From Pseudoxanthomonas indica (lineage in GTDB: Bacteria; Pseudomonadota; Gammaproteobacteria; Xanthomonadales; Xanthomonadaceae): DNA of 64,000 bases. Location: positions 1,578,832 to 1,642,831 of the forward strand of contig NZ_FUZV01000002.1 in the NCBI RefSeq assembly GCF_900167565.1, in the 5' to 3' direction. The notes beneath the pieces were generated by a model. It was not told the origin of the DNA. It was given only the letters and a program-made list of their open reading frames with translations, and ran no database searches. The position numbers and the translations under genes are program-made. Below are positions 12,477 to 17,040 of the stretch, piece by piece. The first letter of the stretch is position 1. Every line of letters starts with the position of its first letter.

Positions 12477-13724
12477 ATGTGCACACGTAAGACTCTCATT
12501 GCATCCGCGGTGCTTCTGGGACTCGGTCTTTCGGGACAGGCATTCGCACAGGCAACAAGCAACGAAAGTGGTGCTGGTGATGACATCGTGGTCGCGGTCG
12601 ACCTGGATGCCACCGACAGCAGCACTCATGATGACAGCGACAACAGCAACCACAGCAAGGCCTGGTCGGACGGCTACGGCACGGCAGCCGCCAGCAATGG
12701 CAGCACCGCGACCTCGACCTTCTCCAACTCGTTCAACAGCAGCAAGGCGATCGCCGAAACCAAGCTGATCGGCAGCGTTTCGGGCGTGGGCGTGAGCGAC
12801 ATTGGCAACTCCGCCAAGAACTGGGGCAGTGCTGATGGCGGACGCGGCGGCAGCGGTGGCGACGGCTACGGCGGCAAGGCCTATGCTGGTGACGGCGATG
12901 GCGGCAAGGCGATCGGCGGCGACGGCGACAGTGGCCGGGCATCCGGTGGCGGCGGCTACAGCGGCAAGGCCTATGCCGGTGACGGCGACGGCGCCCGCGG
13001 CAGTGGCGGCGACGGCGGAGACGGTGGCAATGCCAAGGGTTACGGCGCAAGCGGCGGTGACGGCAAGGCCGGTAGCGGTCATGCCCTGGCCGGCAGCGCA
13101 GCCGGTGGTGGCGGTGCCAAGGCCGGTGGTTGGGGCGGTGGCAAGGCCAACGGCGGAGACGGCGGAGACGGCGGCTACGTGCGTGAGCGCGGTGCTGGCG
13201 ATGCGTCCGGCGCAGGTGGTGCAGGCGGCGCCGGTGGCGCAGGCGGCACCAATGGCGATGGCACTGCAACCGCAACGGGCGGCGCAGGCACCTCGGGCGC
13301 AGCAACGTCCACCAGTGGCGCAGCCACCGGTACCGGCGGTGCCGGCGGCTCCGTGGCCTCCAATGGTGGTGCGGCAGGTGCAGGCGCAGCCGGCACCGGC
13401 GGTTCCGGCACGGGTGGTGCGGCAACCTCGGGTGATGGCACCGGTGGTGCCGGCACGTCCGGCGACGGCACCGGTGGCTCGGCCACGGCAGGTGCGGGCA
13501 CCGGTGGTGGTGCCTGGGGTGGTGCAGGCACCGGCGCAGCAGGGGGCGCAGGTGGTGCAGGCGGCGCGGTGACCAACGATGCAGGTGCGTTCAACATGTC
13601 GAACAACATGACCAGCGTCGGCCAGTCCGCCGCGGGCATCATGGTGGCGGCACAGAACAGCGGCATGGCCTCGCTGATCCAGCAGGGCATCACCGTGCAA
13701 GCCAACCTGACCGTAGGCCCATAA
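12477..13724 (+). CDS. Secreted glycine-rich low-complexity protein, candidate fibre subunit of a Fap-like system
   Basis: The 415-residue product has a signal peptide (MCTRKTLIASAVLLGLGLSG, cleavage probably after FAQA) and then an N-terminal Asp/Ser/Asn-rich region (about residues 27-115). A long Gly/Ala/Asp/Thr-rich repeat region (about 118-365) follows, with units such as GGDG, GGAG and two near-identical copies of GY[GS]GKAYAGDGDG. The tail NMSNNMTSVGQSAAG...QNSGMASLIQQGITVQAN is conserved-looking. The tail motif GI-x4-QN[ST]G-x3-LIQ-x4-V-x2-N recurs in the protein encoded at 13857. It lies first in a run ending with a FapF-like channel. A strong AAGGAG lies upstream and a perfect hairpin downstream, consistent with high expression of a major subunit. 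The amyloid role is inference. Confidence 0.72.
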   Translation: MCTRKTLIASAVLLGLGLSGQAFAQATSNESGAGDDIVVAVDLDATDSSTHDDSDNSNHSKAWSDGYGTAAASNGSTATSTFSNSFNSSKAIAETKLIGSVSGVGVSDIGNSAKNWGSADGGRGGSGGDGYGGKAYAGDGDGGKAIGGDGDSGRASGGGGYSGKAYAGDGDGARGSGGDGGDGGNAKGYGASGGDGKAGSGHALAGSAAGGGGAKAGGWGGGKANGGDGGDGGYVRERGAGDASGAGGAGGAGGAGGTNGDGTATATGGAGTSGAATSTSGAATGTGGAGGSVASNGGAAGAGAAGTGGSGTGGAATSGDGTGGAGTSGDGTGGSATAGAGTGGGAWGGAGTGAAGGAGGAGGAVTNDAGAFNMSNNMTSVGQSAAGIMVAAQNSGMASLIQQGITVQANLTVGP

Positions 13725-13735
13725 GCGCTCCTGGT

Positions 13736-13763
13736 CTGCCTGTCTGCTCCTGCAGACAGGCAG
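13736..13763 (+). other. Perfect 11-bp intercistronic hairpin after the glycine-rich gene
   Basis: CTGCCTGTCTG (13736-13746) pairs perfectly with CAGACAGGCAG (13753-13763) across a six-base loop. It begins 11 bases after the stop of the glycine-rich gene and has no T-run. Such a hairpin could stabilise the upstream message or partly block read-through, giving more of the first protein than of the downstream ones. Confidence 0.7.
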
Positions 13764-13856
13764 CCTGCATGCGCGAAATCCGATCCCGCCCGCGTGGCGG
13801 GATCGGTACTGCTGTCAGTCGCGCATGGACGGAACGCATGGCAAAGGAGAATGACC

Positions 13857-14339
13857 ATGCAGTCCCCAGTTTCCGAGCAATTGCGGTCAACCCGGTTGCG
13901 ACGTCGGCTCCTCTTGTGGGCTGGCCTGGCCAGTCTCGTGCTGCCCGGCATGGCGTGGGCAGCCGATCCGGCTGCGGTGGTCGCGGATCCGGCACAGACC
14001 AGCGCCGCGGCCGCGCCTGAAACGACTCTTCCAATCCCGCTGCCCAGCCAATGGACGGCAATGAAAGAACGCAGCGTCAACCTGCTGGGCGCGCCGGTCG
14101 GCGTGGCCCGCCTGGAGACGATGCGCGGCGGCGAAGACAAGCACGAGAGCGTCATCCTGGTCGATGGCAAGGTCGACAACAACACGGCCGATCACATCAT
14201 CAGCGGTAGCAACACCATTACCGATACCGCCTTTGACAGCGCCAACGGCATCAACACCATCATCCAGAACACCGGGACCAACGTCCTGATCCAGAACGCG
14301 ATGGTGGTGAACGTCAACTTCGGGGGCACGCCACAGTGA
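13857..14339 (+). CDS. Exported protein with double-glycine motif and fibre-type C terminus (candidate minor subunit)
   Basis: The 160-residue product starts at ATG 13857, seven bases after AAGGAG; the ATG at 13851 is too close to that site. A signal peptide with an Arg-rich n-region ends near GMAWA (residue 36). Residues 84-92 read ARLETMRGG, with hydrophobic residues at -4, -7 and -12 relative to the GG, the spacing known for C39-processed double-glycine leaders. The C terminus (131-154) matches GI-x4-QN[ST]G-x3-LIQ-x4-V-x2-N, shared exactly with the preceding glycine-rich protein. The stop overlaps the start of the C39 peptidase gene (GTGA), so translation is coupled. I know no named homologue. 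Confidence 0.72.
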   Translation: MQSPVSEQLRSTRLRRRLLLWAGLASLVLPGMAWAADPAAVVADPAQTSAAAAPETTLPIPLPSQWTAMKERSVNLLGAPVGVARLETMRGGEDKHESVILVDGKVDNNTADHIISGSNTITDTAFDSANGINTIIQNTGTNVLIQNAMVVNVNFGGTPQ

Positions 14340-15025
14340 AATCGCGGCGCATCGCCAGCATCCTTCTCATGCTGTCGGTGGCATGCGCACCGTTGCGTGC
14401 CGCGGAGGTCCAAGTGCGCGTGCCCACCGGCGGCGCCTACACCATGCGCGTGACCAGCCTGAAGGAAGCGCGCTTCGGCACCACCATTCCGCAGCAGTAC
14501 GACTTCAGTTGCGGATCGGCGGCGATCGCCACCTTGCTGACCTACCAGTACAACTATCCGGTCAGCGAGGAAGAGGTCTTCATGCGCATGTATACGCATG
14601 GCGACCAGGCGCGCATCCGCCGCGATGGTTTTTCCCTGCTCGACATGCGCCGTTACCTGCAGTCGCTTGGCTACGAGGCCGACGGCTTCGAGCTGCCGTT
14701 GGAAAAACTGCTGGAAGAGGGCGTACCGGCGATCGTCCTGCTCAACGACCGTGGCTACCGCCATTTCGTGGTGGTCAAGGGTCTGAAGAATGGCCGCGTG
14801 CTGCTGGGCGATCCGGCACGCGGCACCCGCGCCATGCCGCGCTCGCGATTCGATGCGTTGTGGGACAACCGCGTGATGTTCGTGGTCCACAACCGGCGCG
14901 AACTGGCGCAGTTCAACAATGCACGCGATTGGCGCACGGCGCCGCCGGCGCCGCTGGATATCGGCATCCAGCGTGACGGCCTGCGCAACTCCACTACGCC
15001 ACGTCGCGGGCCAGGAGACATCTGA
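14336..15025 (+). CDS. Exported C39-family cysteine peptidase (FapD-like)
   Basis: The 229-residue product starts at GTG 14336, overlapping the previous gene by four bases. It has a signal peptide (about residues 1-23) and one C39 domain: Q53/Q54 and C59 in IPQQYDFSCGSAAIATLL, H143 in RHFVVVKGL and D159 in LLGDPARG. These fit the oxyanion Gln, nucleophile, general base and Asp of the family. Unlike bacteriocin exporters it has no transmembrane or ABC part, so it acts alone in the periplasm, as FapD does in Pseudomonas Fap operons. Its neighbours carry GG motifs that are plausible substrates. Confidence 0.88.
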   Translation: MKSRRIASILLMLSVACAPLRAAEVQVRVPTGGAYTMRVTSLKEARFGTTIPQQYDFSCGSAAIATLLTYQYNYPVSEEEVFMRMYTHGDQARIRRDGFSLLDMRRYLQSLGYEADGFELPLEKLLEEGVPAIVLLNDRGYRHFVVVKGLKNGRVLLGDPARGTRAMPRSRFDALWDNRVMFVVHNRRELAQFNNARDWRTAPPAPLDIGIQRDGLRNSTTPRRGPGDI

Positions 15026-15026
15026 C

Positions 15027-15560
15027 ATGGAATGGACAATGGGAAAATCAATCAGCGCCTGCGCGCTGATGCTCGGCGCCCCCTTGGCGCAACAGGCCGC
15101 CGCACAGGACGTGGACGCGGCCAACAGCTCACCGGCCAAGAATGGCTTCGGCGACGAATGGGTGCCGGTCGATCCCGCCCGGCTGGACGAGATGCGCGGC
15201 GGCTTCGAGTTGCCGTCGGGGCAGGTGCTCTCGTTCGGCATTGAGCGCGCGGTCTACGTCAACGGCGAACTGCTGGCCAGCAACACCTTGCGCATCTCTG
15301 ACCTGTCCAAGGTCAGTGCCGCCGATGTCAAGGCAATGACCGAGTTCAACAAGGGCCTGGTCGTGCAGATAGGTGACAACAACACCTTCGAGCCTGCCAA
15401 GGTGCCGGGTGCGGTGGTGATCCAGAACACCCTGGACAACCAGCACATCGTCAGCATCACGCGCATGGACATCGGCAGCAACGTCTTGTCCAGCTTCCAG
15501 GAAATGAATGCCAGCAATGCATTGCATGACAGCCTGATCAACGCAGCCAGCTACTACTAA
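15027..15560 (+). CDS. Exported protein with double-glycine motif in the Fap-like operon
   Basis: The 177-residue product begins one base after the C39 stop, with CCAGGAG nine bases upstream of ATG 15027. The N terminus is hydrophobic, with probable signal cleavage near QQAAAQ (residue 27). Residues 51-59 read ARLDEMRGG, again with L at -7, M at -4 and V at -12 from the GG, matching the protein encoded at 13857. The rest includes GIERAVYVNGELLASNTLRI and the C-terminal block GAVVIQNTLDNQHIVSI (from residue 128), which is a looser version of the QNTG/LIQ motif. Gene position and the shared motif suggest a minor subunit, nucleator or chaperone. No family name was recognised. Confidence 0.7.
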   Translation: MEWTMGKSISACALMLGAPLAQQAAAQDVDAANSSPAKNGFGDEWVPVDPARLDEMRGGFELPSGQVLSFGIERAVYVNGELLASNTLRISDLSKVSAADVKAMTEFNKGLVVQIGDNNTFEPAKVPGAVVIQNTLDNQHIVSITRMDIGSNVLSSFQEMNASNALHDSLINAASYY

Positions 15561-15585
15561 CCCCCACCCACGTGAGGATTCGCAG

Positions 15586-17040
15586 ATGAAAGGGACGTCG
15601 CCGCTGAACCTGATGCTGCTGCCAATGGCCATTGCCGCCGGCCTGTCATCGCCGAATTCCGCGCAGGCCCAGCAAGCCGCGCCTGCGACGGCGCCGCCTG
15701 CGGTGCCGGCCGCCGCGCCCGGTGCGAGTTCGCTGGAAGATTTGCAGCGGCAAATCAACGAGCAGCGCCTGCGCCTGGAGCAGACGCAGCAGCAACTACA
15801 GGTGCAGCAGCAGGAACTGATGCGGCTGCAGGGTGCGTTGAACCAGGAGATTCTCGCCAGCGCACGCGCGCGTGGAGCGACGGCGCCGGTGCTGGTGCCG
15901 TCGTTGAACCAGGGCCCGGTGATGGTGTCGCCGCCGGCGCCGGCGGCACAAGGCGCGGTGGTCGCGCAGAACGCGGCCGCGTCCGCACCGGCAACGACCG
16001 CCGTCGCCGCAGCGCAGGACCCGGCCAAACCGCCTCAAGAGAATGCGCCACAGCCGGTGGGACAGGCGCCGGAATCCGACTCACGCCCACCGGAGGTGGC
16101 GCAAATTTTCGATCAGCCCGGCGTGCTCACGCCGCGCGGGAAATTCGTGCTCGAACCCTCGGTCCAATACGGCTACTCGTCCAATGATCGCGTGTCGCTA
16201 GTGGGCTACACGGTCATTCCCGCGATCCTGATCGGCCTGATCGATGTCCGCCAGGTCAAGACCACCACGGCGGTGACCACCCTGACCGGGCGCTACGGTC
16301 TGACCCGCCGTTTCGAACTGGAAGGCAAGCTGCCTTACGTCTACATCAACGGCGACACGGTCAGCCGCGAGATCTTCACCGGCACCGCGCAGGATCGCGT
16401 CTTCAATGCCGATGGCAACGGCATGGGCGATGTCGAGATGACCGCCCGCTACCAGATCAATGAAGGCGCGGCCGACAAGCCGTTCTACATTGGCTGGCTG
16501 CGCTACAAGAGCCGCACCGGCCGGGATCTGTTCGAAGTGGTCACCGACTGCGTGACCCGCTGCGTGCAGAACACCACCGGCACCGGCTTGCCGCTGGAGC
16601 TGCCGACCGGCAGTGGCTTCGAAGCCGTGCAGCCCGGCCTGACTTGGTTGTTCCCGTCCGACCCGGTGGTGTTCTTCGGCAGCCTGAGCTACCTGTACAA
16701 CTTCGAACGCCACAACGTGCAGCGCAAGCTGCTGCTCGGCCAGACCGAGGAACTCGGCAACATCAAGGCCGGCGACATCATCGGCCTGAATCTAGGCCTG
16801 GGCCTGGCCTTGAATGAAAAAGCCGCCATCAGCATCGGTTACGAAATGAACAGCATCGGCAAGACCGAACAGAATGGCCGCGACGCGCCCGGTTCGGTGC
16901 GCATCACCCTGGCCTCGCTGCTGCTCGGCGGCACCTATCGCTTCAACGATCACGTCTCGCTCAACGTGGCGCTGGGCGCGGGCGTGACCGGTGATACCCC
17001 CGATGTCTCGCTGACCGCGCGCGTTCCGATTACCTTCTGA
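15586..17040 (+). CDS. FapF-like outer-membrane transporter with periplasmic coiled coil
   Basis: The 484-residue product has a signal peptide (cleavage near SAQAQQ, residue 27) and a coiled coil of Gln/Leu/Glu heptads at about residues 47-90 (SLEDLQRQINEQRLRLEQT and on). An Ala/Pro-rich linker follows, then a C-terminal beta-barrel from about residue 165 (QPGVLTPRGKFVLEPSVQYGYSS) ending with the aromatic residue of LTARVPITF. Coiled coil plus linker plus barrel is the architecture of FapF, which exports Fap amyloid subunits. It is the last gene of the run that starts at 12477. The FapF-like assignment rests on architecture and context. Confidence 0.78.
   Translation: MKGTSPLNLMLLPMAIAAGLSSPNSAQAQQAAPATAPPAVPAAAPGASSLEDLQRQINEQRLRLEQTQQQLQVQQQELMRLQGALNQEILASARARGATAPVLVPSLNQGPVMVSPPAPAAQGAVVAQNAAASAPATTAVAAAQDPAKPPQENAPQPVGQAPESDSRPPEVAQIFDQPGVLTPRGKFVLEPSVQYGYSSNDRVSLVGYTVIPAILIGLIDVRQVKTTTAVTTLTGRYGLTRRFELEGKLPYVYINGDTVSREIFTGTAQDRVFNADGNGMGDVEMTARYQINEGAADKPFYIGWLRYKSRTGRDLFEVVTDCVTRCVQNTTGTGLPLELPTGSGFEAVQPGLTWLFPSDPVVFFGSLSYLYNFERHNVQRKLLLGQTEELGNIKAGDIIGLNLGLGLALNEKAAISIGYEMNSIGKTEQNGRDAPGSVRITLASLLLGGTYRFNDHVSLNVALGAGVTGDTPDVSLTARVPITF

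Follow-up and report, generated by a model that had tools for sequence, protein, structure and literature searches.

Candidate leader-type cleavage sites for a free C39 peptidase in two exported proteins of a Fap-related locus of Pseudoxanthomonas indica

The locus described here comprises five genes at positions 12477 to 17040 of a 64,000-nucleotide stretch of the Pseudoxanthomonas indica genome (contig NZ_FUZV01000002.1, positions 1,578,832 to 1,642,831), which is referred to as the window. Proteins are named after the first position of their genes, and the two small exported proteins encoded before and after the peptidase gene, the 13857 and 15027 proteins, are also called U and D, as are their families. 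From its sequence, this locus is likely to be a Fap-related fiber operon of a subtype of its own, in which a free C39 peptidase would cut the U and D proteins at a leader block ending in MRGG. A preliminary description of this DNA had reported an exported C39 peptidase flanked by two MRGG proteins and next to a FapF-like protein, and all five open reading frames (ORFs) were located as claimed. It had also called the arrangement distinct, but FapD is already described as a C39 peptidase that is free, exported by Sec, and found beside FapF (PMC5557850), and hence the arrangement itself is not new. The novelty lies in the candidate cut site, in the finding that FapE has it too, and in an additional family of candidate substrates.

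The MRGG block of both window proteins fits a C39 leader site, with a hydrophobic residue at position -12, Leu at -7, Met at -4, and a Gly-Gly pair. C39 domains are described as gripping leaders at -4, -7, -12, and -15 (PMC7018657), and the leader contacts given for LahT150 lie at -4, -7, and -12 (PMC6363468); the double-glycine spacing pointed out earlier (V-12, L-7, and M-4) agrees with these contacts. Both proteins have hydrophobic residues at -12, -7, and -4, Gly at -2, and a residue from the set Gly, Ala, and Ser at -1. At -15, the D protein has Trp and the U protein has Gly, with its Leu sitting at -16. The Arg at -8 had been considered a weakness, but LahT150 is reported to accept Lys, Ala, or Asp in place of Glu at this position (PMC6363468), and the Arg should therefore be no obstacle. 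A tight DNA pattern for the motif has only two matches in the 3.96-Mb genome, namely, those at positions 14106 to 14132 and 15177 to 15203.

An absence of MRGG from homologues, raised beforehand as an outcome that would speak against the idea, was not what we found; the motif is strongly conserved in relatives. Residues L86, R90, G91, and G92 are invariant among 22 aligned U-family sequences, and W45, L53, M56, R57, G58, and G59 are among the 25 invariant columns of 44 aligned D-family sequences. All 120 D-family proteins listed, out of 354 found with the window protein included, match the searched pattern. In the alignments of both families, the far N-terminal part is variable, and the site region and the part after the site are conserved. 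After the block, the two families have only a short stretch in common (hhalign probability of 28.4 over 23 columns). Near-textbook leader forms are also seen in relatives, namely, LSDPELADYRGG at locus L123 and LTDEEMGDMRGR at locus L112.

The window peptidase matches the Peptidase_C39 model PF03412 with 77.4 bits (cutoff of 22). The catalytic residues C59, H143, and D159 named in the preliminary description, and likewise the upstream Q53, align with residues of LahT150 (6mpz), and the four residues are kept in 180 of the 180 free C39 sequences aligned, that is, 100 matches of at least 100 bits from the fetched loci plus a relative set of 80 loci, with two weaker matches excluded. A window-type peptidase (>300 bits) was present in 31 of 149 family genomes, and the same 31 genomes hold both the U and D families. 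At locus L100, two free C39 genes with identical scores lie approximately 2.9 kb apart (G283:C11:1029331-1029867 and 1032195-1032731), possibly due to a recent local duplication.

To follow the block beyond the window, the neighbors of 101 free C39 genes from 100 loci were chosen by gene position, since iterated hidden Markov model searches for both RGG families grew with each round and were judged to have drifted. A neighbor was the longest ORF with a crude signal-peptide score rather than a called gene. With class limits set by us (phmmer bits to the window peptidase and FapF bits), the classes comprised 30 window-type, 13 intermediate (one a duplicate), 48 canonical-type, and 9 Fil-type members, the last including L073, which was placed there by the score limits and looks Fap-like; ATP-binding cassette (ABC)-type rows were excluded from the peptidase sample, and genome G016 was represented by its short first locus. 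A loose pattern (Leu or Met at -7, Gly at -2, and Gly, Arg, Lys, or Gln at -1) was found in the protein directly after the peptidase for 29/29 window-type, 12/12 intermediate, and 47/47 canonical-type ORFs found, and in the protein before the peptidase for 28/28 window-type, 10/11 intermediate, and 6/7 Fil-type ORFs (of 9 loci). As a background, 676 other signal-peptide-like ORFs in the same loci gave 119 matches to the loose pattern and 33 to a tighter one.

Since the residues at -7, -2, and -1 are demanded by the patterns, the evidence for these positions consists only of the share of matching proteins. Position -12 is not required by the loose and tighter patterns, yet it is one scoring term; it was hydrophobic in 29/29 window-type D proteins, 28/28 window-type U proteins, and 47/47 FapE-position proteins and, in the intermediate group, in fractions of 0.83 of 12 D and 0.90 of 10 U proteins. 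Hydrophobic residues were present at -4 in 100% of window-type D, 89% of window-type U, and 91% of FapE-position proteins and at -15 in 79% of window-type D and 57% of FapE-position proteins. A strict leader rule, which permits Gly, Arg, or Lys at -1, was matched by 40/41 D and 38/39 U proteins, that is, by 78/80 neighbors in the window-like sets, and by 47/47 FapE-position proteins, with shuffle expectations of 1.04, 0.48, and 0.78, respectively. The same rule was matched by 1/46 proteins at the FapC position, 0/29 Gly-rich fiber proteins, and 0/99 peptidases.

The relative set consisted of 80 loci, the best of 585 relatives, from Pseudoxanthomonas, Lysobacter, Dyella, Luteibacter, Burkholderiaceae, Massilia, Variovorax, and others, and gave no D candidate at 4/80 loci and no U candidate at 5/80. 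At its first application to this set, the earlier tighter rule was matched by 59/76 D and 55/75 U proteins. The misses mostly had a residue at -4 outside those allowed or a site beyond residue 150, and some were due to a wrong start chosen by the script (L175 and L238) or to a far-downstream site (L197 and L204). The strict rule was matched by 68/76 D and 54/75 U proteins (71 and 67, respectively, with any residue at -4) in this set, which is not blind for a rule written after it had been seen. When position -4 was left free and the range was widened, 72/76 D and 70/75 U proteins matched.

The lengths on either side of the block were also compared. In 73 of the 76 D proteins of the 80-locus set, 37 to 599 residues precede RGG (median of 55), and a median of 121 residues (range of 97 to 335) follow it, with log standard deviations of 0.65 and 0.23 for the D proteins of this set. 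A removable pro-region would look like this, and so would a long linker. In the FapE-position proteins of loci L197, L204, L174, L176, and L194, 381 to 599 residues precede RGG, and the tail comprises 120 to 121 residues.

The preliminary description overlooked that the D protein occupies the FapE position, that FapE has a block of its own, and that the Gly-rich 12477 protein is the likelier main subunit. FapE-position proteins of canonical systems carry a block ending in G-R or G-K. At locus L104, for instance, the protein downstream of the peptidase is FapE according to the NCBI model (351.4 bits; cutoff of 250), and the upstream neighbor is FapC (269 bits; cutoff of 195); the FapE block, IELKDAEMAELRGR, ends at residue 40, approximately 20 residues past the likely signal peptide, and is followed by Tyr. 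When window-type D proteins were compared with FapE-position proteins, the hhalign probability was 91.4 with the block and 1.1 without it, and the 15027 protein is therefore FapE-like by position and site but not proven to be FapE. That the 15027 family and FapE might be homologous in their mature parts was considered and rejected, as hhalign finds no such homology.

Several observations weigh against cleavage at the block. The counted sequences are related by descent, and hence the counts are not independent. This could suggest that the motif is common by ancestry and chance only and has no function, but we regard this as extremely improbable given that the shuffle expectations are near 1 and that window-type D and FapE-position proteins share the block but have no detectable similarity after it. 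Residues after the site are conserved as well (Phe or Tyr at +1), so that part of the conservation of the block may belong to the mature fold, and the Gly pair is absent in some U relatives (L230 and L234). Among the 10 intermediate U proteins, just 40% have a hydrophobic residue at -4; this residue is Ala in 14/60 D proteins of the 80-locus set, and Glu, His, and Asn at -4 among the misses of that set are hard to fit. Position -15 is hydrophobic in 4% of U proteins, which have a hydrophobic residue at -16 instead. The argument from length is confined to the 80-locus set, because in the 42 window-like D proteins, both parts vary about equally (42 to 99 residues before and 115 to 233 after; log standard deviations of 0.17 and 0.19). 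The published mass spectrometry of FapE, which is reported to have given no peptides from about the first 70 residues (PMC5557850), speaks for cleavage, but the gap does not map the site.

A further point concerns the last residue of the block. FapE-position proteins have Arg (28/47) or Lys (19/47) at -1, and FilA-type proteins have Gln (6/6). In known C39 sites, this residue is Gly, Ala, or Ser. Arg, Lys, and Gln are thus foreign to such sites, and the bond that is cut may fall after the preceding Gly. In this sub-case of the proposed cleavage, which we consider possible, if doubtful, the cut would be made after the invariant Gly (RG-G, RG-R, RG-K, or TG-Q), or a second protease would trim the end. 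The residue at -1 is Gly, Arg, Lys, or Gln among the matches, the preceding Gly being fixed by the pattern, and at five loci (L122, L128, L084, L100, and L123), one substrate has Gly and the other has Arg beside the same type of peptidase. However, the register of -12, -7, and -4 fits the published leaders only if that Gly is at -2 (PMC6363468).

The presence of Arg, Lys, or Gln at -1 in sister families and the conserved residues running on past the site would also suit a docking or export element that is not cut and is read by the C39 domain as a chaperone or by the FapF-like pore. For certain type I systems, a chaperone role of inactive C39-like domains is described (PMC5557850). We nonetheless consider a mere docking role unlikely, since the catalytic residues are present in all free C39 sequences aligned and since a C38A substitution in FapD, a periplasmic protein, is reported to abolish FapC secretion in Escherichia coli (PMC5557850). 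In addition, the strict rule is rarely matched by FapC-position proteins and never by Gly-rich proteins, both of which would be expected to pass through the same pore.

The FapF-like proteins themselves require comment, as the strict rule was matched by 7/89 FapF sequences, which is above the shuffle expectation of 1.04 and is a further point against the RGG proteins as the targets. FapF processing was raised by Rouse et al. (PMC5557850), and as suggested for Pseudomonas, the real C39 target could be the FapF linker, with the RGG proteins not being substrates; we judge this to be very unlikely, as 82 of the 89 sequences are without a match and the FapF-like protein of the window is not among the seven. 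A leader-like block is found in the linkers of two FapF-like proteins, LAPDDLVTMRGRY in L120:10043-11500 (+) and ISPVEAAGMRGTF in L119:4793-6505 (-), which would fit the published idea of FapD cutting FapF in at least some lineages.

The features of the locus are listed in Table 1. The export of the five proteins is putative, based on N termini read by eye and with a crude script. The last four genes, from 13857 to 15586, look like one unit, as the end of the 13857 gene and the GTG start of the C39 gene overlap by 4 bases and a single base separates the C39 gene from the 15027 gene.

Table 1. Features of the Fap-related locus within the window
Feature	Position	Strand	Details or basis
Putative exported Gly/Ala/Ser-rich protein, 415 amino acids, likely main fiber subunit	12477..13724	+	No leader site; conserved C-terminal tail
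RNA hairpin 1, 12-bp stem, separating the fiber gene from the other genes	13736..13763	+	Folding of 13722-13860
RNA hairpin 2, 11-bp stem	13780..13806	+	Folding of 13722-13860
Putative exported protein U, 160 amino acids, proposed substrate 1 (signal peptide, variable pro-region, leader site, conserved 68-residue tail)	13857..14339	+	
Candidate U leader site, residues 78-92, ending ARLETMRGG (V-12, L-7, M-4, G-2, G-1); proposed cut after 14132	14088..14132	+	
Putative exported C39 peptidase, FapD-like, 229 amino acids, GTG start	14336..15025	+	
Q53 codon (oxyanion-side Gln)	14492..14494	+	Alignment
C59 codon (nucleophile)	14510..14512	+	Alignment
H143 codon	14762..14764	+	Alignment
D159 codon	14810..14812	+	Alignment
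Putative exported protein D, 177 amino acids, FapE position, proposed substrate 2 (signal peptide, pro-region, leader site, conserved 118-residue tail)	15027..15560	+	
Candidate D leader site, residues 45-59, ending ARLDEMRGG (W-15, V-12, L-7, M-4, G-2, G-1); proposed cut after 15203	15159..15203	+	
FapF-like coiled coil and outer-membrane barrel, 484 amino acids, proposed export pore	15586..17040	+	Profile and structure-sequence matches

The Gly-rich 12477 protein, which lacks the block, is the likelier main fiber subunit. Its tail is alike in relatives and resembles that of the U family (hhalign probability of 85.5). In window-like loci, composition was the sole criterion for picking the Gly-rich gene, and at several loci, no ORF or a clearly wrong one resulted. 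A relationship to FapC was considered and rejected, as the tail family compared with the FapC-position set gave an hhalign probability of 0.2 and no NCBIfam match was obtained. The 12477, 13857, and 15027 proteins had no Pfam or NCBIfam match up to an E value of 1, including to DUF6160 and FilA. The absence of any match to the FapB, FapC, and FapE models at this limit, with the FapB and FapC models present in the library searched, is in line with the earlier remark that the substrates do not look like FapA, FapB, or FapC. The FapE model gave no match in the window genome, and control genomes gave none either. No FapA match was obtained among the five proteins in the NCBIfam scan, in which the presence of the FapA model in the library was not verified; fapA is reported to be the Fap gene most often missing (PMC6173800). 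The region from 13722 to 13860 folds at -75.9 kcal/mol (z score of -6.31), and the same intergenic region has a z score below -2 at 19/20 loci, the window included, when simple shuffles are used. The two hairpins in this region could keep the main fiber protein at a higher level of its own.

Putting these observations together, we propose that all five products use Sec to cross the inner membrane, as their N termini suggest, and that the free C39 peptidase, in the periplasm, would bind the leader segments of the 13857 and 15027 proteins via the hydrophobic residues at -12, -7, and -4. A cut at or beside RGG, as expected from the motif register and C39 chemistry, would remove the pro-regions, and the conserved tails might then exit via the FapF-like pore and serve to nucleate, cap, or anchor a fiber that consists mainly of the uncut Gly-rich protein. 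In canonical Fap systems, the same rule probably applies, with FapD cutting FapE at the conserved block that ends in RG(R/K), before Tyr or Phe. More broadly, and with somewhat less assurance than for the window operon, we favor a general post-Sec route in which free periplasmic C39 peptidases beside FapF-type pores would cut Sec-signaled precursors with double-glycine-type leaders (FapE, RGG proteins, and FilA) before export, the FapD cut site then being the RG(R/K) block of FapE.

FapD is needed for fiber secretion in Pseudomonas. Its substrate was described as "yet to be determined" in 2018 (PMC6173800), and in a 2025 review, FapD is "thought to process" FapE and FapF (PMC12822426). In a 2017 study, Fap proteins are said to have no canonical C39 sequences, with GG and GA being noted in FapE (PMC5557850). 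Among the papers listed in searches of the open-license PMC literature, we recognized none that names the block as a cut site. The block thus makes the question testable: should it be the site, a single mutation in each protein would suffice as a test. If our proposal is correct, it would also provide a reason why fapD- and fapF-like genes occur together in further phyla, as has been reported (PMC6173800), and a simple substrate marker for related systems with proteins that the Fap models do not cover.

The window locus is best compared with the fapABCDEF system of Pseudomonas. In both, a free exported C39 peptidase is followed by a smaller exported protein and then by a FapF-like pore, so that the D-E-F order is the same, and the protein at the E position carries the leader block. 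The window locus differs in that its peptidase scores 145.6 bits with the NCBIfam FapD model NF058616 and its pore scores 138 bits with the FapF model NF058560, far below the equivalog cutoffs of 330 and 700, respectively, although the pore also matches the FapF crystal structure 5o67 with an E value of 2.7e-26. It further has, upstream of the peptidase, an additional small RGG protein, as well as Gly rather than Arg or Lys at -1, and a Gly-rich fiber protein with no detectable likeness to FapC. The Fil system, a putative pilus system (FilA/DUF6160, the C39 peptidase FilB, and FilC), similarly has a free C39 peptidase next to a barrel protein and to an exported precursor that contains a leader-like block, but its block ends in TGQ (6/6 matches), and the barrel protein directly follows the peptidase. 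The window peptidase scores 126.4 bits with the FilB model, below its cutoff of 475. At locus L091 (8293-8748, minus strand) and related Fil-type loci, FilA/DUF6160-like proteins with a TGQ-ending leader-like block are encoded beside a FilB-like C39 peptidase; the L091 precursor scores 56.7 bits with FilA and 83.1 bits with DUF6160. A cut like that proposed for the RGG proteins may also occur in FilA. LahT, PCAT1, and ComA share with the window system the C39 family, the catalytic residues, and leader contacts at -12, -7, and -4 and the Gly-Gly pair. In these proteins, the C39 part belongs to an ABC transporter as one of its domains, and the cut is made on the cytosolic side and precedes export, whereas the window peptidase is predicted to be a free exported protein that would act after Sec.

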